Origin: Bosea vaviloviae
GTDB taxonomy: Bacteria; Pseudomonadota; Alphaproteobacteria; Rhizobiales; Beijerinckiaceae
Assembly: GCF_001741865.1 (NCBI RefSeq)
Contig: NZ_CP017147.1
Span: 4,889,001-4,953,000, forward strand
Reading direction: 5' to 3'
DNA length: 64,000 nt
Shown piece by piece: positions 4,583 through 33,227 of this stretch; position 1 is the first letter of the stretch; each line of letters opens with the position of its first letter. The translations under genes and the position numbers were made by a program. The notes beneath the pieces were generated by a model. The model was not told the DNA's origin. It saw nothing but the letters and a program-made list of their open reading frames with translations, and ran no database searches.

Positions 4583-5529
4583 AATCCTTCACCTATGAGC
4601 GTGCCGCCACGCCGGCGCAGGCTGCGTCAGCCGCCGCCCGAAACCCGGATGCGCGCTTCATCGCCGGCGGGACCAACCTGCTCGACCTGATGAAGCTCGA
4701 GATCGAGACCCCGCGCCACCTGATCGACGTCAACGGCCTGGCGCTCGACACCATCGCCTCGACACAGGATGGCGGCCTGAGGATCGGCGCGCTTGTACGC
4801 AACACCGATCTCGCGGCCGATGCGCGCATCCGGCGCGATTACGGCTTGCTGTCGCGCGCGCTTCTGGCAGGCGCTTCGGGCCAGCTCCGCAACAAGGCAA
4901 CGACGGCCGGCAACCTGCTGCAGCGCACCCGCTGCCCCTATTTCTACGACACCAACCAGCCCTGCAACAAACGGCAGCCCGGCACCGGCTGCTCGGCGCT
5001 GGGCGGCTTCAGCCGGTCCCTCGCGGTGGTGGGCGCAAGCGATGCCTGCATCGCCACCCATCCCAGCGACATGGCGGTTGCGATGCGGGCGCTGGACGCG
5101 CAGGTCGAGACGGTGAGGTCCGATGGCGGAACGCGCAGCCTGCCGATCGCCGAATTCTATCGGGCGCCGGGCGAGACGCCCCACCTTGAAACCACCCTCG
5201 CCCCGGGAGAGCTGATCACGGCGGTGACCTTACCCAGGCCGGTCGGCGGCAAGCATGTCTATCGCAAGGTGCGCGACCGCGCGTCCTATGCATTCGCGTT
5301 GATTTCGGTCGGCGCGATCGTGCAGCGCGACGGCAGCGGGCGCGTTGCCCTGGGCGGCGTCGCCCACAAGCCGTGGCGGATCGAGGCGGCGGAGGCCCAG
5401 TTGCCGCAAGGCGCCAAGGCCGTGACGGAGCGCCTGCTGGCGAATGCCAGAACCACCCATGACAATGCCTTCAAGCTTCCGCTGGTCGAGCGCACGCTCG
5501 CCGCCGTGCTTGTCGAAGCGAGGGCCTGA
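4579..5529 (+). CDS. paoB: aldehyde oxidoreductase, FAD-binding subunit (PaoB/YagS type)
   Basis: A 316-residue FAD subunit (CO-dehydrogenase flavoprotein fold). The FAD pyrophosphate motif [13 protein letters not shown] is near residues 32-44, and a second conserved stretch, [17 protein letters not shown], near 98-114. A run of cysteines ([20 protein letters not shown]) matches the extra 4Fe-4S site known in PaoB. It starts inside the paoA stop (ATGA overlap) with AGGAAGG just before, indicating translational coupling. Confidence 0.92.
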
Positions 5530-5533
5530 AGCC

Positions 5534-7741
5534 ATGAAGTTCGACACACAAGCCACCACCAATCCAATCGACAGGCTCAAGGTCATCGGGCAGCCGCTGG
5601 ACCGGATCGACGGGCCGCGCAAGGCGACCGGCACGGCCCGCTACGCCTATGAGCAGCACGATGTCGCGCCGAACCAGGCCTATGGCCATGTCGTCGGCTC
5701 GGCCATCGCCAAGGGCCGGATCACCGGAATGGACCTTGCCGCCGCGCGGCAGGCGCCCGGCGTGTTGACCATCGTCACAGCGCAGAGCGCCGGCAAGCTC
5801 GACAAGGGCAGATACAACACCGCCAGCCTGCTGGGCGGCCCGGAGATCCAGCACTACCATCAGGCGGTGGCTCTCGTCGTAGCCGAGACCTTCGAGCAGG
5901 CCCGCGCTGCCGCGCAGTTGGTCAAAGTGCGTTATTCGGACGCGAAGGGCAGCTTCGATCTCGCCGCCGTCATGGACAGCGCTCCCGATGCGCCGGCCGA
6001 CGGGGAGACACCGACCCAGACGGCCGTCGGCGACTTCGCGGGCGCCTTCGCCGCCGCGCCGGTGAAACTCGACCAGAGCTATTCGACGCCCGATCAGGCC
6101 CACGCGATGATGGAGCCGCACGCCTCCATCGCGCGCTGGGAGGGCGACAAGCTGACGCTGTGGACCTCGAACCAGATGATCGCCTGGAGTGCGGGTGACA
6201 TGGCCAAGACGCTGGGCATTCCCAGGGAGAACGTCCGGCTGATCTCGCCCTTCATCGGCGGCGGCTTCGGCGGCAAGCTTTTCAACCGCGCCGACGCGCT
6301 GCTGGCGGCGCTGGGCGCGCGGGCGGCCGGGCGGCCGGTCAAGGTCGCCCTGACGCGGCCGATGATGTTCAACAACACCACCCACCGTCCGGCGACGATC
6401 CAGCGCATTCGCATTGGCGCGACGCCCGACGGCAAGATCACCGCGATCGGACATGAGAGCTGGTCCGGGGATCTGAAGGATGGCGGGCCGGAGGTCGCGA
6501 CGCAGCAGACGCGCCTGCTCTATGCCGGCGCCAACCGGATGACCTCGCTGAAGCTAGCGGTCCTCGATCTTCCCGAGGGCAATGCGATGCGCGCACCGGG
6601 CGAGGCGCCGGGCCTGATGGCGCTGGAGATCGCCATGGACGAAATGGCGGAGAAACTCGGCCTGGACCCGATCGAGTTCCGCATTCGCAACGACACCCAG
6701 GTCGATCCGGAGAAGCCGCAGCGGCCGTTCTCGCAGCGCCGCCTGGTCGAGTGCCTGCGCCTGGGTGCGGAGCGTTTCGGCTGGGACAAGCGCTCAGCGA
6801 CACCAGCTACCGTCCGGGACGGCAAATGGCTCGTCGGCATCGGCGTCGCCTCCGCCTTCCGCAACAACCTCGTCATGAAGTCCGGCGCACGGGTCCGGCT
6901 CGATCGCGACGGCACCGTCACGGTCCAATCCGACATGACCGACATCGGCACCGGCAGCTACACCATCATCGCCCAGACGGCCGCAGAAATGATGGGCCTG
7001 GCCATCGACAAGGTGAAGGTCGAACTCGGCGACTCGAGTTTCCCTGTCTCTGCCGGCTCCGGCGGCCAGTGGGGAGCAAACTCGGCGACCGCGGGCGTCT
7101 ACGCGGCCTGCGTCAAACTGCGCGAGGCCGTGCTGCAAAAACTCGGAATCAACACGGCCGATGCGGTGTTCGAAGATGGCGCCGTGAGATCGGGCAATCG
7201 CGCCGTCCCGCTGGCGTTTGCCGCGCGCGAGGCCGATATCGCCGTCGAGGATACGATCGAGTTCGGCGACCTCGACAAGACGCACCAGCAATCGACCTTC
7301 GGCGGCCATTTCGTCGAGGTCGGCGTGGACGCCGCCACCGGCGAGGTCCGGCTCCGGCGCATGCTCGCCGTCTGCGCGGCGGGGCGCATCCTCAACCCCA
7401 AATCCGCCCGCAGCCAGGTCATCGGCGCGATGACGATGGGCGCGGGCGCGGCCCTGATGGAGGATCTCGTCATCGACCGGCGCCGCGGCTTCTTCGTCAA
7501 TCACGACCTGGCGGGTTACGAGGTTCCCGTCCACGCCGACATCCCCCACCAGGACGTCGTCTTCCTCGATGAGACCGACCCGATGTCGTCACCGATGAAG
7601 GCCAAGGGCGTGGGCGAACTCGGCATCTGCGGTGTGGGAGCGGCGGTCGCCAATGCGGTCTACAATGCCACCGGCGTGCGCGTGCGCAATTATCCGATCA
7701 CCTTGGACAAGCTGCTCGACAAGCTGCCATCGGTGAGCTGA
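5534..7741 (+). CDS. paoC: aldehyde oxidoreductase, molybdenum-binding subunit (PaoC/YagR type)
   Basis: A 735-residue catalytic subunit binding the molybdopterin-cytosine cofactor and oxidising aldehydes to acids. The glycine-rich loop FIGGGFGGKL lies near residue 240, and the catalytic glutamate motif KGVGELGICG near residues 690-700, as in the whole xanthine dehydrogenase family. Length matches PaoC (732 residues). No signal peptide; it should be carried out with PaoA by the Tat route. It starts four bases after the paoB stop. The maturation factor PaoD, usual after this gene in E. coli, is absent nearby. Confidence 0.93.
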   Translation: MKFDTQATTNPIDRLKVIGQPLDRIDGPRKATGTARYAYEQHDVAPNQAYGHVVGSAIAKGRITGMDLAAARQAPGVLTIVTAQSAGKLDKGRYNTASLLGGPEIQHYHQAVALVVAETFEQARAAAQLVKVRYSDAKGSFDLAAVMDSAPDAPADGETPTQTAVGDFAGAFAAAPVKLDQSYSTPDQAHAMMEPHASIARWEGDKLTLWTSNQMIAWSAGDMAKTLGIPRENVRLISPFIGGGFGGKLFNRADALLAALGARAAGRPVKVALTRPMMFNNTTHRPATIQRIRIGATPDGKITAIGHESWSGDLKDGGPEVATQQTRLLYAGANRMTSLKLAVLDLPEGNAMRAPGEAPGLMALEIAMDEMAEKLGLDPIEFRIRNDTQVDPEKPQRPFSQRRLVECLRLGAERFGWDKRSATPATVRDGKWLVGIGVASAFRNNLVMKSGARVRLDRDGTVTVQSDMTDIGTGSYTIIAQTAAEMMGLAIDKVKVELGDSSFPVSAGSGGQWGANSATAGVYAACVKLREAVLQKLGINTADAVFEDGAVRSGNRAVPLAFAAREADIAVEDTIEFGDLDKTHQQSTFGGHFVEVGVDAATGEVRLRRMLAVCAAGRILNPKSARSQVIGAMTMGAGAALMEDLVIDRRRGFFVNHDLAGYEVPVHADIPHQDVVFLDETDPMSSPMKAKGVGELGICGVGAAVANAVYNATGVRVRNYPITLDKLLDKLPSVS

Positions 7742-7931
7742 GGTACGGGATTGGGCCCATCTCCGTTACGTGCTTATGTCCGGGTCAGGCCAGCATCTGG
7801 AAACTCAGAGCCGCACTATTTGCAAAACAAAATCCGGCGTCGGAATCACGCCGCCAAAGCAGGCACTCCTGCCGGAGTGGGAAGGCCTTTCACCCGGCTG
7901 CAAGACATAATGTTTGAGCTTTCCTCAGCCC

Positions 7932-8053
7932 TCATCGATCGGCCGCGAAGGGCTTGAGATCGCAGAAAGCCGGCATGCCGGTCATCGCCTCCGCCAGGAG
8001 CCGCCCGATGCCCGGCCCCAGGATTAAGCCGTGATGGGCGTGGCCGAAGGCGA
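7932..8053 (-). pseudogene. 3' fragment of a D-amino-acid-dehydrogenase-like gene
   Basis: About 120 bp closely matches the last part of the intact flavoprotein gene at 9602-10918. The fragment encodes AFGHAHHGLILGPGIGRLL and ends FCDLKPFAADR followed by TGA, against FAFGHAHHGFTLGPVTGRLL and FCDLKPFAADRF in the intact copy. Similarity stops abruptly near 8053. There is no start codon, FAD-binding half or promoter. It is a remnant of a paralogue, not a partial duplication in frame. Confidence 0.85.
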
Positions 8054-21560: not shown

Positions 21561-21698
21561 TGGTCGGGTCGCTCCCGCATTCCCCGATCTGTTTGGAAAC
21601 ACCGGCTCCATCCTAAACTCGCGTCCTCATCCTTCGAGACGCAGCCTACAGGCTGCTCCTCAGGATGAGGGCTGGAGGCTCCAAACGGGGCGCTGGCA
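21561..21698. repeat. intergenic stretch with a CCTCATCCT palindromic repeat
   Basis: From 21626 to 21671 the sequence CCTCATCCTTCGAGACGC ... CTGCTCCTCAGGATGAGG forms an imperfect hairpin. Near relatives of this element are abundant in Bosea/Bradyrhizobium-type genomes (recalled knowledge). The flank GGCTGGAGGCTCCAAAC recurs in degenerate form near 7910 and 32155. It may end transcription of the tetR gene from the right. Confidence 0.75.
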
Positions 21699-22325
21699 TC
21701 AGGCGCGTTGCATCTGGCTCGCAAGCCCACCGCAGACGAGATTCACCAACCGCTCGACCTGCTGGTCCAGGTCGCGCTGTGGCACCGCCACAAGCTTCTC
21801 CTCGAGCCCGAGCATGACGACGCCGTGGACGGCCGAGAACAGGGTTCGGCTCAGCAGGACAAGATCGGCCTCGCCCGCCTGGGGCTGGAGCCGCTGCAGC
21901 GGCGCCAGGATGTAGCGGAACATCGTCATCTGCTCGCTGATCGCCCATTCCGGCACGATGGCGCCTTCCGCCATGCGATGCTCGAACAGGGTCCGCCAGA
22001 GCTGCAGGTTCCCGCGCGCGAAGCGGCAGTAAGCCTGCGCGATCGCGACCAGCTGGGCGCTCGCCTCTTCCTTGGAATCCAAGCGGCGGCCTTGCGTTGC
22101 CTCGGCCAGGGCGGCGTCGAGCCGTGCAAGCGTTCGAGATCCGACACGCAGCACGAGCTCGTCCATATCCTGGACGAGATTGTAGATCGCCCCCAGCGCG
22201 CAGCCGACCTCGCTCGCCAGCTCGCGCGCCTTGAGACCTGCAAGCCCCCTCTCGGCAATGGCGCGCTCAGCCGCCAGCACCAGGGCCTCGCGCTGCCGCT
22301 CGCGGCGTTCCGTCGTCTTGACCAT
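21699..22325 (-). CDS. TetR-family transcriptional repressor
   Basis: A 208-residue TetR protein. The helix-turn-helix (GLKARELASEVGCALGAIYN, about residues 30-49) is followed by an effector domain with aromatic-rich LQLWRTLFEHRM and SAVHGVVMLGLEEKL, like the WHG-type C-terminal domain. It is divergent from a PspA-like gene. Three GAAC-N3-GTTC palindromes in between are its likely operators, so it should repress both genes. Confidence 0.88.
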   Translation of the reverse strand: MVKTTERRERQREALVLAAERAIAERGLAGLKARELASEVGCALGAIYNLVQDMDELVLRVGSRTLARLDAALAEATQGRRLDSKEEASAQLVAIAQAYCRFARGNLQLWRTLFEHRMAEGAIVPEWAISEQMTMFRYILAPLQRLQPQAGEADLVLLSRTLFSAVHGVVMLGLEEKLVAVPQRDLDQQVERLVNLVCGGLASQMQRA

Positions 22326-22340
22326 GTCTCATTCTGATTT

Positions 22341-22412
22341 TGAACATTGTTCAAAATATGTCTTGAACGACGTTCATGTTCGTGCCATTCCTACGTTCAT
22401 GAACAACGTTCA
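22341..22412. promoter_or_regulatory. three TGAAC-N3-GTTCA operators between tetR and the pspA-like gene
   Basis: Three 13-bp sites share one consensus: TGAACATTGTTCA (22341-22353), TGAACGACGTTCA (22364-22376) and TGAACAACGTTCA (22400-22412). All have perfect TGAAC/GTTCA arms. Centres are 23 and 36 bp apart. The first lies 16 bases from the tetR start and the third about 17 bases before the pspA-like start, which fits repression of both promoters. Confidence 0.8.
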
Positions 22413-22428
22413 TAACGGAGAACCAGCC

Positions 22429-23115
22429 ATGTTCAAGATGTTTGTGACCCTCTTCCGCGGCAGCGTCACTGAGGCGGGCGAAGCCATCGCCGACCGCAAC
22501 GCGCTGCTGATCCTCGACCAGCAGCTGCGCGATGCAACTGCCGCCTTCGACCGGGCCAAGAAAGCCCTCGCTGTGGCGATCGCCCAGGACCAGCAGGAGA
22601 GCGCCCGCCTCGCGGCGACCAAAGGCCGGGTCGTCGATCTGGAGAACCGGGTCGGCGCGGCGCTTCATGCCGGCGACGAGATCCTGGCCCGCGAGGGCGC
22701 CGAAGCCATCGCGGCGCTGGAGGCCGATCGCGATGCCGCTGCCGCGGCGCAGGCCCTCTTCGCCACGGAGATCCTGCGGCTGCGGCGCCATCTCGCCCAG
22801 GCCCAGACGCGCATCGCCGAGCTCGATCGCGGCCGGCGCCTGGCGCGGGCCTCGGAGGCCGTGCGCGAGATGCGGCGCGGCCGGACGGAAGCCGCCCGGC
22901 CCCATGAGGCGACGCTTGGAGTGGCCGAGCAGACGCTGAAGCGGCTGCGCGAGCGCCAGACGCAAGCCGAGGCGGCCGATCTCGCGCTCGATGAGCTCGA
23001 CGGCGCAGCCACAATCTCGGTCACGGAGAAGCTCGCCGCGCGCGGCTACGGCCCGCGCTTGAAGCCGACCGCCGACGACGTACTGGCCCGTCTGCGCGGC
23101 ATGGCCACCGCCTGA
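22429..23115 (+). CDS. PspA/IM30-family protein
   Basis: A 228-residue, almost entirely helical, coiled-coil protein. It opens MFKMFVTLFRGSVTEAGEAI, an amphipathic start typical of PspA, followed by long charged helices (LLILDQQLRDATAAFDRAKK and on). PspA proteins assemble on stressed membranes. Length matches the family. CGGAGAACC precedes the ATG at 22429. It is controlled with the downstream YiaA-like gene, presumably by the divergent TetR. Confidence 0.8.
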   Translation: MFKMFVTLFRGSVTEAGEAIADRNALLILDQQLRDATAAFDRAKKALAVAIAQDQQESARLAATKGRVVDLENRVGAALHAGDEILAREGAEAIAALEADRDAAAAAQALFATEILRLRRHLAQAQTRIAELDRGRRLARASEAVREMRRGRTEAARPHEATLGVAEQTLKRLRERQTQAEAADLALDELDGAATISVTEKLAARGYGPRLKPTADDVLARLRGMATA

Positions 23116-23163
23116 CCATTCACCAATCCCCTGCCAATTCCCTCTCACGCACGGAGATCTTCG

Positions 23164-23442
23164 ATGAACCAGAATTCCCAACCCCATAGCGGCGCCTGGG
23201 TCAGCTTCACCTATGCCTCGTTCTTCACCGCCGCCGTCATGGTCGGCACCGGCATCCTGTTCCTGCCGCTCGACTGGTGGGCCAAGGGCTATCTCGGCAT
23301 GGGCGCGGTCATGCTCGTCCAGTCCTGCGTGACCATGACCAAGACGGTGCGTGACATGCACGAGGCCTCGCGCCTGGTGAACCGCATCGAGGATGCGCGC
23401 ACCGAGCGCCTGCTGATGGATGTCGGCAAGCCGGCGCTCTGA
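23164..23442 (+). CDS. YiaA/YiaB-family inner-membrane protein
   Basis: A 92-residue protein with two hydrophobic segments (TYASFFTAAVMVGTGILFLP and GYLGMGAVMLVQSCVTMT) and the family's WWAKGYLGMG and TKTVRDMHEASRLVNRIEDA. Function of the family is unknown. It lies 48 bases after the PspA-like gene, with ACGGAG before the ATG, and is likely cotranscribed, suggesting a membrane-stress role. Confidence 0.85.
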   Translation: MNQNSQPHSGAWVSFTYASFFTAAVMVGTGILFLPLDWWAKGYLGMGAVMLVQSCVTMTKTVRDMHEASRLVNRIEDARTERLLMDVGKPAL

Positions 23443-23573
23443 GCCGCCCGATCGCGCAAAACGCCGGCGCGCCGGTAAGCGCGACTTAACCGAGAAACCG
23501 CATCGCCACTCGCGTGAAACGATTGTTTTCCAATGGCGATGCAACCCTCCCTCGAACGCAACGCGAGCAAGCC

Positions 23574-26500
23574 ATGACCGATAGTTTGATGCTGAAGCGG
23601 CGCTTCGCGCCGTTGTTCTGGGCGCAGTTCTTCTCCGCCTTCAACGATAATTTCCTCAAGAACGCGCTCGTCTTCATCATCCTCTACAAGCTCGTCGGCT
23701 CGCATGGCGAAGCGCTGGTGACGCTCGCCGGCGGCATCTTCATTGCGCCGTTCTTCCTGCTTTCGGGCCTTGGCGGCCAAATGGCCGACCGCTTCGACAA
23801 GGCGCTGATTGCGCGCCGCCTGAAGCTCGCCGAGATCGGCGCATCCGGGATCGCGGTTGTAGGCTTCATGCTGCAATCGGTGCCGGTGCTGTTCGTGGCG
23901 CTGGCGGCCTTCGGCATCATCGCGGCGCTGTTCGGCCCGATCAAATACGGCATCCTGCCCGATCATCTCAGGCGCGAGGAATTGCCGGCGGCCAACGCGC
24001 TGATCGAGGGCGCAACCTTCATCGCGATCCTGCTCGGCACCGTCGCAGGCGGCCTCACCGCGCGGGAGGGCGGCAATGTCGCCTCGCTCAGCGCCCTGAT
24101 CATGGTCTTCGCGCTCGCGTGCTGGATTGCCACCCTGTTTATCCCCAAGACCGAGGCCGCGGCTCCCGACCTCAAGATCGACGCCAACATCTTCCGCTCG
24201 ACCGGCGGCCTGCTCAGGGATCTCTGGGCCGATGCCCGGCTCTGGCGCACCGGCGTCATGGTCAGCCTGTTCTGGCTGATCGGCGCGGTGGTGATGTCGC
24301 TGCTGCCCTCTCTGGTGAAGAACGGCATGGGCGGCACCGAACTCGTGGTCAGCGTCTATCTCGGTCTCTTCGCCATCGCCATCGCGGTCGGCTCGGGCAT
24401 CGGCTCCTTCCTGTCGAGCGGGCGGATCGTGCTCCTGCCGGTGCCGGTCGCCTGCCTCGTCATGGGCCTGTTCGCGCTCGATCTCGGCTGGGCGATCTCC
24501 GGCGTGGTGGCGCATCAGCCGGCGCGCGATGTCGCCGCCTTCTTCGCGGACGGCCTGGCCTGGCGCGTCGGCATCGACCTTACCGGCCTCGCCATCGCCG
24601 GCGGCGTCTTCATCGTGCCGTCCTTTGCGGCGATGCAGGTCTGGGCCCCGGCTGAAAAACGCGCGCGCATCATCGCGGCCGCCAATGTGCTTTCGGCGGC
24701 CTTCATGGTCGCGGGCACCGTCGTCGTCGCGCTGCTGCAGGCTGCGGGCTTGAGCCTGTCGCAGCTCTTCCTGATCATCGGCGCGGGCACGCTTGCGGCT
24801 GCCGTCTGGATCTTCAGGACGCTGCCGACCAATCCGCTGCGCGATTTCCTGTCGATCCTGCTGCGCGCCTTCTACCGGCTCGAAATCGCCGGCCAGGAGA
24901 ACATCGCCAAGGCCGGCCCGAATGCGATCATCGCGCTGAACCATGTCAGCTTCCTCGATGCGGCGCTGGCGCTCTCGATCCTCGACAAGGACCCGGTCTT
25001 CGCCATCGACCACGGCATCGCCCAGCGCTGGTGGGTCAAGCCCTTCCTGAAGCTGACGCGCGCCATGCCGCTCGACCCGACGCGCCCGCTGGCGACGCGC
25101 TCGCTGATCAATGCGGTGAAGGGTGGCGAGAGCCTGATCATCTTCCCGGAAGGCCGCCTCACCGTCACCGGCAGCCTGATGAAGGTCTATGACGGCGCCG
25201 CCATGATCGCCGAGAAATCCGGCGCCATGGTCGTGCCTGTCCGCATCGAGGGGCTGGAGGCGACCGTGTTCTCGCGATTGACCCGCGAGCAGGTTCGCCG
25301 CCGCTGGTTCCCGAAGGTGCGCGTCACCATCCTGGAGCCGGTCGCGCTCAGCGTCGCCGAGGAGCTCAAGGGCAAGGCGCGCCGCCAGGCCGCGGGCGCT
25401 GCGCTCTACCAGATCATGTCGGACCTGATCTTCAAGACCACGGATATCGACCGCAGCGTCTTCGAGGCCGTCGTCGAGGCCGCGAAGGTCCATGGCATGG
25501 GCCGAATCGCGGTCGAGGACCCGATCACGGGCTCGCTGACCTATAAGCGCCTGCTGATCGGCGCCGAGGTGCTCGGCCGCAAGCTCGCGCCGCTGGCAAA
25601 GCCCGGCGAAGCGCTCGGCGTGATGCTGCCCAATGCCAATGGCGCGGCGGTGACGCTGCTTGGCCTGATCTCGGCGGCCCGCGTGCCGGCGATGATCAAC
25701 TTCACGGCCGGCGCCACCAATATCGCGGCGGCCTGCAAGGCGGCCGAGATCGGCACGATCGTGACCTCGCGCGCCTTCGTCGAGAAGGGCCGGATGGGGC
25801 CGCTGGTCGAGGCACTCAGGGAAACAGTCGCGATCGTCTATCTGGAGGATGTCCGGGCCACGGTATCGACTAGCGACAAGCTCAAGGCCCTGTGGCGCCA
25901 TGGCCGGCCGATCCTTGCCTCGACGGGGCAGGACCGGGCCGCGATCCTGTTCACCTCCGGCTCGGAAGGCACGCCCAAGGGCGTCGTCCTGTCCCATGCC
26001 AACATGCTCGCCAACACGGCCCAGGCCGCGGCGCGGATCGACTTCGGCCGGCGCGACAAGGTCTTCAACGTGCTGCCGGTGTTCCATTCCTTCGGCCTGA
26101 CGGTCGGCCTCGTGCTGCCGCTGGTCTCGGGCGTGCCGGTCTATCTCTATCCCTCGCCGCTGCATTACCGGCTGGTGCCGGAGCTGGTCTATGGCTCCAA
26201 CGCCACCATCCTGTTCGGCACCGACACCTTCCTCTCCGGCTATGCCCGGGCGGCCCACCCCTATGATCTGCGCTCGCTGCGCTACATCCTGGCCGGGGCC
26301 GAGCCGGTCAAGGAGGCGACGCGCCGGATCTATATGGAGAAGTTCGGCGTCCGCATCCTGGAAGGCTACGGCGTCACCGAAACCGCGCCGGTGCTGGCGA
26401 TCAACACGCCGATGTTCAACCGCTTCGGCACCGTCGGCCGGATCATGCCGGGCATGGAAGCCAGGCTCGAACAGGTTCCCGGCGTCGATGAGGGCGGGCG

Positions 26501-26972
26501 CCTGCATGTGCGCGGTCCCAATATCATGCTGGGCTATCTGCGCGCCGAGAATCCCGGCGTGCTGGAGCCGCCGGTCGAGGGCTGGCACGATACCGGCGAT
26601 ATCGTCACCATCGACAAGGACGGCTTCGTCGTGATCAAGGGGCGCGCCAAGCGCTTCGCCAAGATCGCCGGCGAAATGGTCTCGCTCGCCGCGATCGAGA
26701 CCCTGGCGGCCGAGCTCTGGCCCGATGCGCTCTCGGCCGTGGCGAGCCTGCCCGATGCGCGCAAGGGTGAGCGCCTGGTGCTGGTCACCGCCCAGCGCGA
26801 TGCGACCAAGGCGGCATTCCAGGCCCATGCCAAGAGCAAGGGCGCCTCCGAATTGATGGTCCCCGCCGAAGTCCTGGTCGTGCCGGCCGTGCCGGTGCTC
26901 GGCTCGGGCAAGCTGGACTTCGCCGGGGTCACGCGCCTGGTGCGCGAACGCTCCGCCGCGCTGGCCGCCTGA
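23574..26972 (+). CDS. fused lysophospholipid transporter / PlsC acyltransferase / acyl-activating enzyme (LplT-Aas type)
   Basis: A 1132-residue three-part protein. Residues about 1-410 form an MFS/LplT-like transporter (PLFWAQFFSAFNDNFLKNAL). About 430-620 is a PlsC acyltransferase with the HX4D site in NHVSFLDAAL and FPEGRLT. About 640-1130 is an AMP-forming acyl-activating domain: LFTSGSEGTPKGVVLSH, GYGVTETAPVLA, GWHDTGDIVTIDKDGFVVIK. E. coli uses separate LplT and Aas to re-acylate lysophospholipids. The fusion fits that role, but its place at the head of a ThiF/nitroreductase operon hints at a special lipid. The ATG at 23574 is preferred to upstream starts; its ribosome site is weak. 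Confidence 0.9.
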   Translation: MTDSLMLKRRFAPLFWAQFFSAFNDNFLKNALVFIILYKLVGSHGEALVTLAGGIFIAPFFLLSGLGGQMADRFDKALIARRLKLAEIGASGIAVVGFMLQSVPVLFVALAAFGIIAALFGPIKYGILPDHLRREELPAANALIEGATFIAILLGTVAGGLTAREGGNVASLSALIMVFALACWIATLFIPKTEAAAPDLKIDANIFRSTGGLLRDLWADARLWRTGVMVSLFWLIGAVVMSLLPSLVKNGMGGTELVVSVYLGLFAIAIAVGSGIGSFLSSGRIVLLPVPVACLVMGLFALDLGWAISGVVAHQPARDVAAFFADGLAWRVGIDLTGLAIAGGVFIVPSFAAMQVWAPAEKRARIIAAANVLSAAFMVAGTVVVALLQAAGLSLSQLFLIIGAGTLAAAVWIFRTLPTNPLRDFLSILLRAFYRLEIAGQENIAKAGPNAIIALNHVSFLDAALALSILDKDPVFAIDHGIAQRWWVKPFLKLTRAMPLDPTRPLATRSLINAVKGGESLIIFPEGRLTVTGSLMKVYDGAAMIAEKSGAMVVPVRIEGLEATVFSRLTREQVRRRWFPKVRVTILEPVALSVAEELKGKARRQAAGAALYQIMSDLIFKTTDIDRSVFEAVVEAAKVHGMGRIAVEDPITGSLTYKRLLIGAEVLGRKLAPLAKPGEALGVMLPNANGAAVTLLGLISAARVPAMINFTAGATNIAAACKAAEIGTIVTSRAFVEKGRMGPLVEALRETVAIVYLEDVRATVSTSDKLKALWRHGRPILASTGQDRAAILFTSGSEGTPKGVVLSHANMLANTAQAAARIDFGRRDKVFNVLPVFHSFGLTVGLVLPLVSGVPVYLYPSPLHYRLVPELVYGSNATILFGTDTFLSGYARAAHPYDLRSLRYILAGAEPVKEATRRIYMEKFGVRILEGYGVTETAPVLAINTPMFNRFGTVGRIMPGMEARLEQVPGVDEGGRLHVRGPNIMLGYLRAENPGVLEPPVEGWHDTGDIVTIDKDGFVVIKGRAKRFAKIAGEMVSLAAIETLAAELWPDALSAVASLPDARKGERLVLVTAQRDATKAAFQAHAKSKGASELMVPAEVLVVPAVPVLGSGKLDFAGVTRLVRERSAALAA

Positions 26973-26976
26973 GGCG

Positions 26977-27939
26977 ATGCTGCGCTTCTGGCTCAAGGCG
27001 CTGACGAAGCCGGCGCTCGATCTGACGCTGACCACCCATCCCGGGCTGGTGACGCGGATCATCGAGCGCCCCGGCGCGGTGCTCGACGACGTGGCGCTGG
27101 CTGCGCTGGTCGAGCAATTGCGCATCGTCGCGGGCCGGACGCTGGCCCAGGGCGCCCTGAGCTATGGCGTGTTCTCGGGCGAGCGCGAGCGGCTGTCGCA
27201 GACGATCATAACGCTGATCACCGAGAAGGAGAGCGGCAAGCCGATCGCCTTCAACGCGCTGGCGCAGATGCGCGTCTCGCTGAACGGAGACCAGCAGGAG
27301 GTCACGCATCTGGGCCTCGTCATGGTCGATCCCGATCAGCGCGGGCGCGGCCTCTCGGGTGTGCTCTACGGGCTGACCGTGCTCGTGCTCTTCATCCGGG
27401 GCGGCCTGCGCCCGCGCTGGATCTCCAATGTCACGCAGGTGCCCGGCGTCGTCGGCATGGTCTGCCAGACCTTCTCCGAGATCTACCCCTCGCCCGATGC
27501 CGGCGCGCGCCAGAGCTTCGCGCATCTCACCCTCGCGCGGCAGATCATGCGCGACCACCGCCATGTCTTCGGCGTCGGCGAGGAGGCCGGCTTCGACGAG
27601 GCCCGCTCGGTCATCACCAACGCCTATACCGGCGGTTCCGACGATCTGAAGAAGAGCTTCGCGGCCGCGGCCCAGCACCGCGAGCCGCACTACAACGCTT
27701 TCTGCGAGAGCACGCTCGACTATGAGCGCGGCGACGACTTGCTTCAGCTCGGCCGGATCGATCTGCCTGCCGCGCGCCGCTACCTCATCGGCCAGTTGCC
27801 GCGCGCGTCGCTGCCGGGGCTGCTGGGGGCCGGGGCCTTCCTGCTGCTGCAGCGGCTCGTGTTGCCCATCCTCTATTGGCTCGATGACGGCCGCCGCTTC
27901 GGCCTGCTGCGTCCACGCCCGTCCCGGCAGAGATTATGA
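26977..27939 (+). CDS. GNAT-like protein with a C-terminal hydrophobic segment
   Basis: A 320-residue protein. The stretch LGLVMVDPDQRGRGLSGVLY (about residues 109-128) looks like the acetyl-CoA-binding motif A of GNAT acetyltransferases (V-x-P-x-x-RGxG). About residues 285-305 (GLLGAGAFLLLQRLVLPILY) form a hydrophobic segment that may attach it to the membrane. It starts four bases after the previous stop and overlaps the next gene by four bases. Substrate unknown; perhaps the lipid or metabolite made by this operon. Confidence 0.6.
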   Translation: MLRFWLKALTKPALDLTLTTHPGLVTRIIERPGAVLDDVALAALVEQLRIVAGRTLAQGALSYGVFSGERERLSQTIITLITEKESGKPIAFNALAQMRVSLNGDQQEVTHLGLVMVDPDQRGRGLSGVLYGLTVLVLFIRGGLRPRWISNVTQVPGVVGMVCQTFSEIYPSPDAGARQSFAHLTLARQIMRDHRHVFGVGEEAGFDEARSVITNAYTGGSDDLKKSFAAAAQHREPHYNAFCESTLDYERGDDLLQLGRIDLPAARRYLIGQLPRASLPGLLGAGAFLLLQRLVLPILYWLDDGRRFGLLRPRPSRQRL

Positions 27940-28817
27940 CCGAGCCTTTCTCCTATGAGAGCTTCACCACCCGCAATCTCGGCTTCGTCTCGGCGCAGGA
28001 GCAGGAGCGCTTACGCGGGGCCTGCATCTTCATCTGCGGTGTCGGCGGCATGGGCGGGGCGGCCTTCATGGCGCTGGTGCGGGCCGGCATCGGCCATTTC
28101 ATCATCGCCGATATCGACCGCTTCGAGACCTCCAACCTGAACCGCCAGGTCTTCGCCCATGCGGGAACGCTGGGCCTTGGCAAGGCGGAAGCCGCAGCCG
28201 AGGCGGCGCGCCAGATCAACCCCGAGATCGCAGTCGAGGTCCTGGGCGCGGAGTGGATCGAGCAACTGCCCGCTATTGCCGCGCGCTGCGCCGTGCTGGT
28301 CAACGGCATGGACGACATTGCGGCCGGCGTTCAGCTCTACCGTGAGGCGAAGCTTGCCGGTGCGACGGTGATCGACGCCTATATGTCGCCGCTGCCCTCG
28401 GTCACCGTGGTGCGCCCCAGCGATCCGCGGCCGGAGGAACGCCTCGGCTTCCCCACGCTCGGCAAGGACTGGCGGGCCATCGACGAGGCCGACCGGCGCG
28501 CCGCCATGCTGCGCGAGATCGAGCATGTCATGCTGCATTCGAGCTCGCGCCACCATGTCGATCTCGCTGTTGCCGCCGAGGTCGCCGCCGGGCGGCGCAG
28601 CCGCATGTCCTTCGCGCCGATGGTCATCACTACCGGCATGATGATGGCCTATGAGGCGATCGCGCTGGTGCTCGGCAAGCGCAGCGGAACCGATTGCCGC
28701 GGCTGGTTCTTCAACCCGCACAAGCCCGCGGTCGAGCGACCCTGGCCGGCGCCGGTCGCTGCGTTGCTGCGCCCCTTCGTGGCGCGCGCGCTCGCCCGCA
28801 TGATGGGTTCGCCATGA
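27936..28817 (+). CDS. E1-like/ThiF-family adenylyltransferase
   Basis: A 293-residue protein with the E1-superfamily ATP site: ICGVGGMGGAAFMALVRAGI (about residues 33-52), DIDRFETSNLNRQV (conserved Asp and the Arg of NRQ) and the LGKAEAAAEAARQINPEI helix. Zn-binding CxxC pairs and a plausible transthiolation cysteine are absent; only four cysteines occur, none at the usual catalytic place. It would adenylate a carboxylate but probably not form a thioester. It is distinct from a plain MoeB/ThiF because no sulfur-carrier gene is nearby. Overlaps both neighbours by four bases. Confidence 0.85.
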   Translation: MTEPFSYESFTTRNLGFVSAQEQERLRGACIFICGVGGMGGAAFMALVRAGIGHFIIADIDRFETSNLNRQVFAHAGTLGLGKAEAAAEAARQINPEIAVEVLGAEWIEQLPAIAARCAVLVNGMDDIAAGVQLYREAKLAGATVIDAYMSPLPSVTVVRPSDPRPEERLGFPTLGKDWRAIDEADRRAAMLREIEHVMLHSSSRHHVDLAVAAEVAAGRRSRMSFAPMVITTGMMMAYEAIALVLGKRSGTDCRGWFFNPHKPAVERPWPAPVAALLRPFVARALARMMGSP

Positions 28818-30016
28818 CCTCGGTCCTGGTCGCCGATTCCGTCGTCAATCTCTGCGGAGCGCTCGGCCTCGGCGTCGCGATGCTCAGCCTGCGCCGGCGC
28901 GACCCGCGCGGCGCGCTGACGCAACGCTTCCAATGGGCGCTCGGGCTCGTCATGGCGCTGTTCGTGCTGCGCGGCCTCGCCTGGTGGTCGGGCAGCATCG
29001 GGCTCGAGCGTCTCGCACTGGCCTGCGCCGCCACGGTGCCGCTCGGCGTTCTCGCCGTCACCGAAGGGGCATTGCGCCGCCATGCGCCACGCTTCGTCAA
29101 GCTTGTGGTCCTGATCGGCTCCGCCGTGCTGGCGCTTGGAAGCCTGCTCGGCCTCTCCGAGCTGACGCGCCTCTACGATATCGGCCTCGCCGCCCTGCAG
29201 ATCGCGACCCTGATCATGTGTGGCCTGCTGCTGGCGCGCCGCGACAAGGCCTCGCTGACGAAGGCCGAGAACGCCGGGGTCGACCGCCTCTGGCTCTGCA
29301 TCGTGCTGGTGCTGCCCTTCCTGTTCACGGATTTCCGCAACCTGATCCCCAACATGCCGGTGCGGCTTGGCGGGCTTGGCGTGCTCGTCATGGTCGGCGT
29401 GGTGCTGATCCAGAGCGGCGGCGAACATACGCGACGTCAGGGCTTTGCCCTGCTGGCCTTGCGCTGCGCGACGGCCCTGCTGCTCGCGGCAGTCCTGGCG
29501 GTGTCCAATGGGGCGGATGCGCCGGAGACGGTCCGGCTCAGCGCCATCCTGCTCTCCGGCTTTCTCGCGGCCGGCCTGATGGTCGATGCGCTGAGAGGGC
29601 TGTTCGAGGCGAACTCGCCGGGAGTGCTGGCCTCCATCGTTCAGTCGCGCGGGCGTGATCGCCCTGCCTTGATCGCCGATCTCGCCGCCCACCCCGTCTT
29701 CGAAAGCGCCAGGCATCTGCGCGAACCCGATCTGTCCGCGTTCGATCCCGACATCCTGCGACCGGCCTTGCAGGAGCAGCAGGTGCTGCGCGCCGCCCAG
29801 CAACCCTGGGGGCGAGACCAGACCGATCCGGCGACGGAACGGCTTACCGCGCTGATGGCGACCTATTCGGCAAGCCATATGCTCGTCATCGCGACCGAAC
29901 CGCTCGATCTCCTGCTGCTGACGATCCCGGCCGTTTCGGCCGATCCCGCGACCGAGACCGCGCTTGTCCTGGTTCGCCGCATGCTGGCGACGTCTGCGCA
30001 GGGTGCGACCGCATGA
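28814..30016 (+). CDS. polytopic membrane protein of unknown function
   Basis: A 400-residue protein with about eight hydrophobic helices in residues 1-265 (LVADSVVNLCGALGLGVAML at the start) and a soluble C-terminal part of about 135 residues. No transporter or enzyme signature is recognised. It overlaps the ThiF-like and acetyltransferase genes by four bases each (ATGA), so tight coupling suggests it is a working part of the same system, perhaps a membrane platform or exporter. Confidence 0.7.
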   Translation: MTSVLVADSVVNLCGALGLGVAMLSLRRRDPRGALTQRFQWALGLVMALFVLRGLAWWSGSIGLERLALACAATVPLGVLAVTEGALRRHAPRFVKLVVLIGSAVLALGSLLGLSELTRLYDIGLAALQIATLIMCGLLLARRDKASLTKAENAGVDRLWLCIVLVLPFLFTDFRNLIPNMPVRLGGLGVLVMVGVVLIQSGGEHTRRQGFALLALRCATALLLAAVLAVSNGADAPETVRLSAILLSGFLAAGLMVDALRGLFEANSPGVLASIVQSRGRDRPALIADLAAHPVFESARHLREPDLSAFDPDILRPALQEQQVLRAAQQPWGRDQTDPATERLTALMATYSASHMLVIATEPLDLLLLTIPAVSADPATETALVLVRRMLATSAQGATA

Positions 30017-31128
30017 TCGAGATCTTCAGCAATGACCGCCGCAAGGCCTTCGCGGTCACCGGCCATGTCTACGGGCGCGACAGCCCCTATGTGCCGCCGA
30101 TGTGGTCGGATTTCGACCGCATGCTCGACCCCGCCCGCAATCCTTTGACCAGGGACGGCCATGGCCGTTTCGAGCTGTTCGTCGCTTTGCGCGACGGCGT
30201 GCCGGCCGGGCGCATCATTGCTGCGATCCACGACGCCTCCAATGCACGCCACGGCACGAACCGCGCCCAGTTCGGCTATTTCGATTGCGGCGACGATCCC
30301 GAAACCGCAGGCGCGCTGCTGGGCGCGGCCGAGGCCTGGGCACGGCAGCGCGGCATGGCGGAGATATCAGGCAATTTCAACCTGACCGCCATGCAGCAGA
30401 TCGGCGTGGTCACGGAGGGTTTCGGGCGCGCGCCCTATACCGACATGGTCTGGACGCCGCCGCATCTCGTCACGCTGCTGGAGGCCAACGGTTATGCCCG
30501 CACCTTCCCGATGACGACCTTCGAGATCGCGCTCTCCGACATCGACCCGGCGCTGCTCCTCGGCCCCAGGCAGCGCGAGATCCTGGCCGACCCCGACTAT
30601 CGCTGGATGCCGATCGACCGGCGCCATTTCGAGGCGCGGCTCGAAGAATCGCGCTTGATCCTGAATGACGGCTTCGACGGCAACCCGATGTTCGTGCCGC
30701 CCAGCCAGGCGGAATACCGCTTCCAGGCCGGCGACATGATGTGGGTCATCGACAAGCGCATCTCGACCGTCGTCCACCACAAGGGCGAGCCGATCGGCGC
30801 GATCATCGCCATCCCCGATCTCAACCCGCTGGTGAAAGCGGTCGGCGGGCGGCTCGGGCCAAGCTTCCCGTTCCGCTTCCTTCGGCATCGCTGGAGCAAC
30901 CGGCGCGCCGTGATCGTCTATCAGTCGGTCAGCCGCGCCGCCCATAACCGCGGCATCAACGGCGCGATGCTGTACAAGGTCGCGACCGCGCTCAAAGCGG
31001 CCGGCTACGCCAGGCTGGGCGGCACCTGGATCGCCGACAGCAACGGGCCGAGCCTGCGCCAGGCCGAGAAGGCCGGCGCCAGGCCGCTGCACCGCCTGCA
31101 TTTGTTCTCGAAATCGCTGGTGGTTTAG
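30013..31128 (+). CDS. GNAT-superfamily acyltransferase-like protein
   Basis: A 371-residue protein. The N-terminal half has VPPMWSDFDRMLDPARNP and GYFDCGDDPETAGALLGAAE, and the C-terminal third carries a second acetyltransferase-like fold (VYQSVSRAAHNRGINGAMLY, ALKAAGYARLGGTWIADSN). From memory this resembles the N-acetyltransferase-like proteins annotated near fatty-acid and phospholipid genes in Hyphomicrobiales. It overlaps the membrane-protein stop and precedes the nitroreductase-like gene by eight bases. Confidence 0.6.
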   Translation: MIEIFSNDRRKAFAVTGHVYGRDSPYVPPMWSDFDRMLDPARNPLTRDGHGRFELFVALRDGVPAGRIIAAIHDASNARHGTNRAQFGYFDCGDDPETAGALLGAAEAWARQRGMAEISGNFNLTAMQQIGVVTEGFGRAPYTDMVWTPPHLVTLLEANGYARTFPMTTFEIALSDIDPALLLGPRQREILADPDYRWMPIDRRHFEARLEESRLILNDGFDGNPMFVPPSQAEYRFQAGDMMWVIDKRISTVVHHKGEPIGAIIAIPDLNPLVKAVGGRLGPSFPFRFLRHRWSNRRAVIVYQSVSRAAHNRGINGAMLYKVATALKAAGYARLGGTWIADSNGPSLRQAEKAGARPLHRLHLFSKSLVV

Positions 31129-31136
31129 GGGTGGCC

Positions 31137-32141
31137 ATGCTCGATCGCCCAGTGGTGGAAGAGCTGGTGGCGGAGGCCAGGCTTGCGCCGAGCGTCCACA
31201 ACATCCAGCCGACGCGCTGGCAGCGCGACGGCGAAGCCTTGCTCGTCCTCGCCGACGACACGCGGCAGCTGCCCGCGGCCGATCCCAGCGGCCATGATGT
31301 GCGGCTCTCGCATGGCGCCGCGATCGAAGGCATGAGCATCGCGCTTGGTCGCCGCGGCCTGCGGATCGGCCGGATCGAGATCGCAAGCGGGCCGAACCCC
31401 GTCGCCCGCCTCGTTGTCGAGGCTGGCGGCGCGCCGGATTCGCTCGCGGCGGCAGTCGCCACCCGCATGAGCTGGCGCGGCGCCTTCCAGCCGCCCGACG
31501 ACGAGACGCAAGGACGCCTCGAAAGCCTGGACAGCGAGAGGGACGATCTCATCGTCATCTCGCAGCGCGATGCCGTGACGGCGATCGCCGATCTGGGCAA
31601 TCGTGCGGCCTATCATGCCCTGTGCGATGACGCGCAGCGTCGGGAACTCCTGCACTGGATGCGGCTGAGGCAGGGTGATGCCGGCAATGGTCGCGATGGG
31701 CTCGACGCCGAGGCGCTGGCTCTGGGGCGCGTCGAGGCGCTCGGGGCCGCTTGGGTTCTGGGGCCGCTATTCCCGCTGCTGCGTCGCATCGGTTTGGCTG
31801 CCCCGCTGACGAGCGATCGCGCCAAGACCGCATCGGGCGTCATCGCGCTGTTTCACCGCCCCGCCGGAGAGGATCCGATCGAGACAGGCCAGGCCTTCTA
31901 CCGCGCCTGGCTGACGATGGAGCGGCTTCGCCTCGCCGCCTGCCCGGTCTCGGTTCTGGCCGATTGGCCCGAGGCGAACCGGATGCTGGTCGCGCAGCAT
32001 GGCGTCCCCACGGGACGCCGGCTCGTCAACGTCTTCAGGCTGGGTGTTGCCGCAGGCGCGCCTTCGACGCGGCATGTCCGCTTGCCGGTTCAGGAGCTCA
32101 TCACCGAGCCTAGCGAGATGAGGTCGTCCGCTGCGCGTTGA
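31137..32141 (+). CDS. nitroreductase-fold protein (Rv1355c C-terminal-like)
   Basis: A 334-residue protein. EARLAPSVHNIQPTRWQ (about residues 10-26) is the nitroreductase FMN-phosphate region, and the C-terminal FYRAWLTMERLRLAACPVSV fits the family's last core helix. It seems to have a split substrate region and may bind FMN weakly. In mycobacteria (Rv1355c) a ThiF domain and a nitroreductase domain are fused, which supports cooperation with the ThiF-like protein encoded here. The ATG at 31137 is chosen because AGGGG ends five bases before it; a GTG at 31131 is also in frame. Confidence 0.72.
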   Translation: MLDRPVVEELVAEARLAPSVHNIQPTRWQRDGEALLVLADDTRQLPAADPSGHDVRLSHGAAIEGMSIALGRRGLRIGRIEIASGPNPVARLVVEAGGAPDSLAAAVATRMSWRGAFQPPDDETQGRLESLDSERDDLIVISQRDAVTAIADLGNRAAYHALCDDAQRRELLHWMRLRQGDAGNGRDGLDAEALALGRVEALGAAWVLGPLFPLLRRIGLAAPLTSDRAKTASGVIALFHRPAGEDPIETGQAFYRAWLTMERLRLAACPVSVLADWPEANRMLVAQHGVPTGRRLVNVFRLGVAAGAPSTRHVRLPVQELITEPSEMRSSAAR

Positions 32142-32181
32142 GCGCATGGAAGCTATTTGGAAACCTCCTGAGCCCTCATCG

Positions 32182-33048
32182 TCAGCTTCTGCAGAGCACC
32201 AGGAAATTGCGGAGGGCAGCGCCGACGCGCTTGTCCCGTCTGATGGCCAACAATGTCGCAACCTCGCTTATGTCGCGAGGCAAGGCGTGTATCCGAAGGC
32301 TGTCGGCATAATGGGACCCCGCGATGACGGCGCGGGGCAGCAATGTGACGCCCATGCCCGCCGCGACGCAGCCCAGCAGCCCGTCGAGCGTGCCGAGTTC
32401 CATCCGGTTGAAAGCCGGCAACCCGATCCCGGCCAGCACATGCTCCAATCGCTGGCGATACGAACAGCCGATACGGAACATCAGCGCAGTCAAACCGTCG
32501 GAGGCAGAGTGGCGCAGGGCCTCGAGCGTAGCGATGCTCGGGGCGGTCACGAGGACGAGTTCCTCGGTAAAGGCCAGGACGACATCGAGCTCCGGATGGT
32601 TGATCGGGCCGGCGACGAAGGCGCCGTCCAGCCTTCGGGCGAGGACCTCGTCGACCAGATGCGCGGTGGGTCCGGTTACAAGCGTGAACTTCACGTCCGG
32701 ACAATCGCGATGAAATCGCGCGAGCAGCGCCGGCAGGCGCACTGCGGCGGTCGTCTCCATCGATCCGATCTTCAACGCGCCGCGGATCGCACCATCGTCG
32801 CGCGCGGCTTCCTTGGCCTCGCGGAGCATGACGATCAGGTTCTCGGCATAGGGCAGCAAGCGCTCCCCGGCTTCCGTGAGCATCATGCCGCGGCTGTGAC
32901 GCTCGAATAAGGCGAGGCCGATCTCCTCCTCGAGTTTCCTGATGCGCGTCGTCACGTTCGACGCGACCGTATTGAGCTCGATGCCCGCTGCGGTGATGCG
33001 CTTGCCCCTGGCGACCTCCAGGAAGGTGCGAAGATCGAGGATGTCCAT
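32182..33048 (-). CDS. LysR-family transcriptional regulator
   Basis: A 288-residue LysR protein. The DNA-binding domain (FLEVARGKRITAAGIELNTV) has the usual ASNVTTRIRKLEEEIG recognition helix, then an effector domain (ALKIGSMETTAAVRLPALLA onward). It is divergent from the GST/lyase/TctC operon, with palindromes between, so it is the probable activator of that operon. Its 3' end is convergent with the nitroreductase-like gene, 40 bases apart. Confidence 0.88.
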   Translation of the reverse strand: MDILDLRTFLEVARGKRITAAGIELNTVASNVTTRIRKLEEEIGLALFERHSRGMMLTEAGERLLPYAENLIVMLREAKEAARDDGAIRGALKIGSMETTAAVRLPALLARFHRDCPDVKFTLVTGPTAHLVDEVLARRLDGAFVAGPINHPELDVVLAFTEELVLVTAPSIATLEALRHSASDGLTALMFRIGCSYRQRLEHVLAGIGLPAFNRMELGTLDGLLGCVAAGMGVTLLPRAVIAGSHYADSLRIHALPRDISEVATLLAIRRDKRVGAALRNFLVLCRS

Positions 33049-33054
33049 GGGCGC

Positions 33055-33134
33055 ATTCTGTCAGAGAGAATGAAGCGTTCAGATTAATTCAGTTCTACAG
33101 AACACAAAGCGCTTTTACGGTAGGTCGTACCGTA
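33055..33134. promoter_or_regulatory. candidate LysR operators between the LysR gene and the GST operon
   Basis: Three inverted repeats: ATTCT-N7-AGAAT (33055-33071, containing the T-N11-A LysR pattern), GTTCTACAGAAC (33092-33103) and TACGGTA-N5-TACCGTA (33116-33134). The first touches the LysR start, the third lies about 95 bases before the GST gene. This spacing suits LysR autoregulation plus activation of the divergent operon. Confidence 0.55.
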
Positions 33135-33227
33135 TCGGAAAGGGGAATTATGGCGCTCACGACCGTTCGCACCCGACCACCCGATAGTCCGGTCATGCTC
33201 GCGCGTATGGCGGCCTGATCAGGCCAG

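Follow-up and report, generated by a model that had tools for sequence, protein, structure and literature searches.

A conserved GN1–MEM core with a jointly inherited ThiF–nitroreductase pair in Bosea vaviloviae: a possible modular acyl-lipid unit of the oxazolone type

INTRODUCTION

What might a GNAT-like acyltransferase, a ThiF/E1-like enzyme, a membrane protein and a nitroreductase-like protein make together? The question is raised by six genes at 23574–32141 of the window, i.e. the 64,000-nucleotide stretch of Bosea vaviloviae DNA analysed here (contig NZ_CP017147.1, positions 4,889,001 to 4,953,000; host genome 6.7 Mb, two contigs). In order these are LplT-PlsC-Aas (a fusion of lysophospholipid transporter, acyltransferase and acyl-ACP ligase, where ACP is acyl carrier protein), GN1 and ThiF, followed by the membrane protein MEM, the second GNAT GN2 and the nitroreductase-superfamily protein NTR. 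All six ORFs (open reading frames) were found with the identities proposed in an initial annotation of this DNA, and adjacent ones overlap by at most 4 bases or are at most 4 bases apart. Our data show that GN1 and MEM are the core of this cassette and that ThiF and NTR are a tailoring pair kept or lost jointly and, in the 98 genomes of one genus compared, found only with the core. As to its product, we tentatively favour, with a confidence that falls a little short of even, a modular acyl-lipid unit with oxazolone-type chemistry.

RESULTS AND DISCUSSION

Conservation of the cassette

Named genomes were scanned with an alignment of ThiF and the best 80 of 135 confirmed loci were used as relatives; their gene content was read by tblastn with the six window proteins, and junction lengths were taken from start codons chosen by script. 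The one-strand order GN1-ThiF-MEM-(GN2)-NTR was found in 74 of the 80 and is therefore not a matter of chance, so that the genes belong to a conserved unit, as had been proposed, and are not scattered in relatives. GN1 lies directly upstream of ThiF in 79 loci, the remaining one being cut by a contig end, MEM is present in 78 and NTR in 76 (it is missing from L029, L041 and L054, on cut contigs, and from L083). The GN1–ThiF junctions measured −13 to +12 bp in 77 of 79 cases and the MEM–GN2 junctions −23 to +11 bp in 49 of 50, as did the GN2–NTR junctions in 59 of 61, whereas the 59 ThiF–MEM values were scattered from −349 to +14 because the start of MEM is ambiguous. Exceptions to the arrangement are L084 (GN1-ThiF-NTR without MEM), L080 (GN2-NTR-GN1-ThiF) and L083 (GN2 reversed and NTR absent). 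That unrelated genes lie together here by accident has a negligible probability; the ThiF-type, GNAT and nitroreductase families are indeed common, but the order and overlaps in 74 of the 80 loci, together with the perfect co-inheritance described below, refute it.

Two members of the proposed operon fared differently. LplT-PlsC-Aas, which had been placed on a par with the other genes, was rejected as a core part and is considered an accessory, as it accompanies only 22 of the 80 loci. Nor are the two GNATs alike, as had been assumed: GN1 belongs to the core, whereas GN2 (present in 65 loci) is absent from 15.

The carriers include Bosea, Bradyrhizobium, Shinella, Ensifer, Mesorhizobium, Rhodobacteraceae, Cupriavidus and Lysobacter, as well as metagenome bins labelled Gemmatimonadales and Thermoanaerobaculia, the records thus spanning Pseudomonadota, Gemmatimonadota and Acidobacteriota. 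The nearest named relative of the window ThiF is that of Bosea sp. OK403 (96%). In a phylum sample of 398 genomes, the window's own among them, a ThiF of the window type was found in three (E below 1e-129, the next scores falling to 1e-35) and GN1 in eight, one of them broken (G583). The latter relative of GN1, at approx. 7906–8370 of L202, contains stop codons, and the stretch has none of the other cassette genes.

Nested inheritance of the GN1–MEM core and the ThiF–NTR pair

The genome-wide presence sets of ThiF, GN1, MEM and NTR were compared in a single-genus sample of 98 genomes, the genus being taken to be Bradyrhizobium. GN1 occurs in 41 genomes and MEM in the identical 41; ThiF occurs in 11 and NTR in the identical 11, all of them within the GN1–MEM set, and 30 of the 41 carriers have neither ThiF nor NTR (Fisher values of 1.4e-28, 8.9e-15 and 0.0008 were obtained with relatedness ignored). 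According to these identical sets, GN1 and MEM behave as one functional pair and ThiF and NTR as another. The core is thus GN1–MEM, to which the ThiF–NTR pair is added. The coupling of ThiF and nitroreductase that had been predicted is supported by the shared 11 genomes; a single inseparable pathway is not upheld, since GN1 and MEM are also present in 30 genomes without them.

Of 18 GN1–MEM loci fetched, the two with ThiF also have GN2 and NTR. The other 16 comprise TetR, PspA, YiaAB, GN1 and MEM, with no ThiF, GN2 or NTR in the stretch; in the five listed gene by gene, other genes come after. Two loci of the phylum sample, L203 and L204, resemble these. G252, from another family, carries GN1–MEM only, and its GN1 groups with GN1s of ThiF-bearing Rhodobacterales. 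In the GN1 tree, which like all our trees is the result of a quick search, the starred branches force at least three changes of ThiF presence. Separately, two YiaAB genes were seen in the GN1–MEM loci L177, L178, L182, L185, L188 and L189, with an extra ORF between them in L177 and L178.

Protein families of the cassette

Alignments were made from 46 of the 80 loci, picked by hand, with ORFs containing internal stops excluded. The rows used were 42 of 44 (A2), 30 of 35 (A4), 30 of 38 (A5) and 23 of 46 (A6), each with the window protein added, 23 of 32 plus the window protein in A3 (several starts hand-reset), and 10 of 120 listed homologues plus P0003 in A1.

GN1 has a GNAT fold according to its predicted model, and Pfam GNAT models match it below cut-off. 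It gave no match to NAS (N-acyl amino acid synthase), FeeM or autoinducer-synthase families in profile-model searches, and hhalign against 12 NAS returned a probability of 0.4%, with TyzA, TrzA and OxzA outside the comparison. It belongs to a GNAT family with no assigned function. GN2 is of a more familiar kind, all 31 aligned members matching PF00583.

By profile, the Rossmann domain of the window ThiF is closest by sequence in the PDB to E. coli ThiF and MoeB (1e-22). This closeness is what favours a classic role, in which ThiF, with an unseen partner, would activate a ubiquitin-like or sulfur-carrier protein or help a short peptide to mature. MoeB/ThiF sulfur-carrier activators carry CXXC zinc motifs. 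None of the 24 aligned ThiF sequences has CXXC, nor is there a conserved catalytic cysteine among them; the one cysteine kept in most, Cys34 (21 of 24), belongs to the nucleotide loop. Asp126, in contrast, is invariant in all 24 and aligns with Asp127 of E. coli ThiF (chain 1zud). In addition, a search of the flanking ORFs of at least 100 codons yielded 13 recurrent families in at least four genera, of which those scanned are TetR, PspA, YiaAB and a RoxA-like cytochrome, the rest being viewed by eye. Sulfur transfer and peptide maturation were rejected on the absence of CXXC and of a conserved catalytic cysteine, and we regard a classic role as very improbable; the earlier opinion that carrier-dependent ThiF chemistry is unlikely is probably correct.

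Against the cut-offs of the PRK08223, PRK14851 and Rv1355c models the window ThiF scored 111 versus 266, 80 versus 1170 and 37 versus 476 bits respectively. In a quick tree the 19 cassette ThiFs fall together in a single clade (SH-aLRT 98) beside an NAS-linked clade; the support for the joint group is 89, and it includes two long unrelated branches.

MEM, which had been described as an eight-helix protein, has nine long helices and a C-terminal alpha/beta domain in its predicted model; the charge pattern suggests that this domain is cytosolic. Its 461 homologues form a family without a name, and none of the 120 listed has a Pfam domain among the matches listed.

The solved structure nearest to NTR by profile is Acg (2YMV, E 5e-22), although NTR lies below the cut-off of the Acg/Rv3131 family (NF047509; 150 versus 199 bits) and matches the oxidase half of the Rv1355c model weakly (47 bits against a cut-off of 476). 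The 21 cassette NTRs group together (SH-aLRT 100), to the exclusion of six ThiF-linked or fused oxidases, in a midpoint-rooted quick tree that has long branches and includes no published FDO-A sequence. An HN motif is found in all eight cassette rows compared, as opposed to DN in all six ThiF-linked or fused oxidases.

Comparison with oxazolone pathways

Oxazolone lipids are a recent discovery whose physiological role is, according to PMC12856293, a major question yet to be resolved; the same paper reports that they break down in acid and in methanol. As described in PMC10404671 and PMC12856293, their pathways are built on three enzyme functions (N-acyltransferase, ThiF cyclase and flavin oxidase), N-acylation precedes the action of ThiF (OxzAB, TyzACB, TrzAS), and desaturation is the work of a nitroreductase-superfamily oxidase. 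With this logic in print, the label of an undescribed pathway was too strong, and the proposal that ThiF adenylates first and the GNATs join afterwards runs opposite to the published order. The comparison drawn with mycobacterial Rv1355c was apt, since PMC12856293 describes this protein, under the name TrzS, as a fusion of ThiF cyclase and flavin oxidase. The adenylation-motif aspartate of the TrzS ThiF part is given as Asp217, of which we infer Asp126 to be the counterpart, TrzS lying outside our alignment.

The acyl-tyrazolone pathway TyzACB (Rv2336, Rv2337c and Rv2338c; PMC10404671) resembles the cassette in having separate acyltransferase, ThiF and nitroreductase-superfamily genes with no carrier protein, and the membrane transporter gene mmpL9 nearby. 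The cassette differs in its acyltransferase family (judged against NAS-type proteins, not TyzA), its second GNAT, probably its oxidase lineage, and an unrelated-looking membrane protein inside the operon; the main text of PMC10404671 does not use the term 'membrane protein'. TrzAS (Rv1356c and Rv1355c; acyl-tryptazolone, PMC12856293) likewise couples a ThiF cyclase to a flavin oxidase with an acyltransferase upstream, but ThiF and oxidase are fused there and separate here, and the window ThiF and NTR are far below the Rv1355c cut-off; neither 'PspA' nor 'membrane protein' occurs in the main text of that paper. OxzAB of Pseudoalteromonas rubra, as reported through PMC10404671 and PMC12856293, is a proteobacterial set of acyltransferase, ThiF and oxidase that makes acyl-oxazolones; it is set apart from the cassette by description rather than by sequence, its ThiF and oxidase being fused. 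Judged by sequence, the cassette is not a member of the described Oxz, Tyz or Trz families, because GN1 is unlike NAS, ThiF is below the model cut-offs and NTR has its own clade in the quick tree. In our reading it works like an oxazolone pathway with different parts.

A likeness in organization is found in the stieleriacine, kyonggic acid and thalassotalic acid clusters, in which, according to PMC12479983, a synthase core has optional ThiF and nitroreductase tailoring: producers of N-acyl dehydrotyrosines have NAS, ThiF and nitroreductase genes, and M. umbonata makes saturated kyonggic acids only, its candidate clusters lacking the ThiF and nitroreductase genes. We found the NAS-ThiF-NTR architecture at L137, L141 and L142. 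These belong to a set of 16 loci with distant ThiFs, a selection from wider scans, of which 13 have an NAS-type gene and five an NTR in the fetched stretch. NAS-type genes were recognized with a profile built from ORFs of these loci and seeded with one L007 protein, three matches of which pass TIGR03694; of the members tested, these three NAS (L137, L131 and L127, of the TIGR03694/FeeM type, which GN1 is not) pass that model and four ThiFs pass PRK08223. In the phylum scan, the ThiF group that comes next in nearness to the window type is typically of this NAS-linked kind.

Within this set, the distant ThiF lies near an NAS-type (exosortase-associated acyltransferase) gene at L126, L127, L129–L131, L133, L134, L136–L138, L141, L142 and L007, and at most of these no nitroreductase was found with the window NTR profile. 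L158, from a Nitratidesulfovibrio vulgaris DP4 plasmid, encodes at 5068–8037 a PRK14852 protein of 989 residues with ThiF and oxidase parts and approx. 300 further N-terminal residues, amid PEP-CTERM genes.

A candidate pathway

As the published oxazolone pathways share the three activities of N-acylation, ThiF cyclization and desaturation, we infer similar chemistry here. GN1 would transfer an acyl chain from acyl-CoA or acyl-ACP, the latter possibly supplied in Bosea by the adjoining Aas domain, onto the amino group of an amino acid or a similar small carboxylate, and MEM would bind, move or sense the product. ThiF would then use ATP to adenylate the carboxylate left free in the N-acyl product, and the amide oxygen would close a five-membered oxazolone ring with neither a carrier protein nor a catalytic cysteine. 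Finally, NTR, with flavin mononucleotide, would remove two hydrogens to give a dehydro, ring-activated lipid, which might afterwards be hydrolysed to its open dehydro form; where ThiF and NTR are absent, the product would be the open, saturated N-acyl compound only. We counted in favour of this proposal the gene order, the nested pairs, the published triad, Asp126 without CXXC, the neighbouring NAS-linked ThiF group and the match of NTR to Acg. A point on the other side is that, as PMC12479983 notes, its three compound families have yielded no acyl-oxazolone.

E1-like enzymes can hand adenylates to external nucleophiles, and the carboxylate activated by ThiF might instead be coupled between molecules, with an amine or lipid accepting it as an amide or ester with the help of GN1 or GN2 and the nitroreductase oxidizing another part. 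This is close to the model first proposed for these genes, and it accords with the presence of two GNATs in 64 of the 80 loci (GN2 is found in 65, L029 being cut before GN1) and with GN1 lying outside the NAS type. Yet ThiF is kept without GN2 in 15 of the 80 loci, GNATs take thioesters and not adenylates, and the nearest triads form an intramolecular ring in the published descriptions, so that we consider such coupling unlikely.

In its widest form the oxazolone proposal would have the cassette put together independently as a pathway for a new lipid, either of the oxazolone class or another dehydro compound with an activated ring, with a non-NAS GNAT, an Acg-like oxidase lineage, MEM inseparable from GN1, a self-protection or stress circuit of TetR, PspA and LplT-PlsC-Aas in one lineage set and a RoxA-like cytochrome as alternative partner elsewhere; this full combination is possible and rather doubtful. 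If it were true, the 30 of 41 carriers without ThiF and NTR would use the core alone to produce a further lipid of simpler structure. Close relatives with and without ThiF and NTR around the same GN1–MEM core offer a built-in natural control, and their comparison would therefore reveal what ring closure and desaturation contribute. Several rhizobial genera are among the carriers.

Membrane-stress genes and the TetR regulator

The unit begins further upstream than the six genes, with PspA (22429) and YiaAB (23164), which were missed at first together with the TetR gene. The TetR gene neighbours the loci of Bosea, Bradyrhizobium, Shinella, Ensifer and Mesorhizobium, and PspA, accompanied by YiaAB, is near 40 of the 80 loci. 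In Bradyrhizobium, TetR-PspA-YiaAB stands directly before GN1, and in Bosea-type loci LplT-PlsC-Aas is inserted between them. In Shinella, Ensifer, Mesorhizobium and Rhizobium, LplT-PlsC-Aas, YiaAB, PspA and TetR are convergent after NTR, exceptions being L042, without a PspA match, and L082, which is rearranged. The palindrome TGAACNNNGTTCA occurs three times between TetR and PspA in the window, compared with a mean of 0.00 in shuffles, and three copies of GAACNNNGTTC precede TetR in all 10 Bosea-type and all 12 convergent-type loci. None was found before TetR in 18 Bradyrhizobium loci (among L020–L039) or in L084; the regulator of Bradyrhizobium therefore probably reads another site. The 400 bp preceding GN1 contain no palindrome in any of the 12 convergent loci, so that the cassette there is probably not under this TetR.

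These neighbours would suit a phospholipid-remodelling system, in which LplT-PlsC-Aas with GN1 and MEM modifies or repairs phospholipids under envelope stress, e.g. by N-acylation of head groups, and ThiF and NTR modify them further. PspA, YiaAB and LplT-PlsC-Aas lie within the unit or in a convergent neighbour, and among 13 genomes of the genus Bosea full-length LplT-PlsC-Aas is present in the same five as ThiF (two of the other four matches there, G662 and G666, have one stop in the matched stretch). Nevertheless, LplT-PlsC-Aas is near a minority of the relatives, G671, outside the genus, carries it without ThiF, and the convergent loci lack the palindrome before GN1; we hold remodelling to be unlikely. 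Under the oxazolone proposal, PspA, YiaAB and LplT-PlsC-Aas would serve membrane maintenance beside a TetR repressor, either as a protection against a membrane-active product or as a response to it. That the cassette is linked to PspA and LplT-PlsC-Aas gives a concrete, testable clue to a role at the membrane.

A gene for a RoxA-like dihaem cytochrome c (two CXXCH) neighbours the cassette or is found close by, tail to tail in most cases, in 19 of the 80 loci: L016, L018, L040, L043, L045, L048, L050, L052, L055, L062, L064, L067, L068, L071, L074, L076, L078, L079 and L083. The L050 protein, the one scanned with Pfam, matches PF21419 and served as the tblastn query that revealed the remaining 18. 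In none of the 80 loci was the RoxA-like gene seen alongside PspA.

Features of the window

The positions of the unit and its regulatory region are collected in Table 1. For LplT-PlsC-Aas the ATG at 23574 was preferred to the upstream GTG at 23514.

Table 1 Genes and predicted regulatory sites of the cassette region
Feature	Position	Strand	Evidence and remarks
TetR-family regulator	21699..22325	-	PF13305 TetR_C_33 9.8e-13, PF00440 3.3e-5; divergent from the unit
Three palindromes TGAACNNNGTTCA, likely TetR operators	22341-22353, 22364-22376, 22400-22412	none	Predicted TetR binding
PspA/IM30 family membrane-stress protein	22429..23115	+	PF04012 1.3e-21
YiaAB two-helix membrane protein	23164..23442	+	PF05360 5.6e-17
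LplT-PlsC-Aas fusion, accessory	23574..26972	+	NF005291 1761 bits, cut-off 1349
GN1, GNAT-fold acyltransferase, core	26977..27939	+	GNAT fold in predicted model
ThiF/E1-like adenylating enzyme, tailoring, putative cyclase	27936..28817	+	PF00899 111.5 bits, 4.6e-32
MEM, nine-helix membrane protein, core, unnamed family	28814..30016	+	Model pLDDT 90.0
GN2, second GNAT, dispensable	30013..31128	+	PF00583 1.5e-5
NTR, Acg-like FMN nitroreductase-superfamily protein, tailoring, putative desaturase	31131..32141	+	PF00881 2.9e-6

No consensus promoter or terminator was found in 21600–33200. The reading frame P0007 (32146–32910) was rejected as a gene because a LysR gene (32182–33048) is situated opposite it; this LysR gene, the next on the right, converges on the NTR gene.

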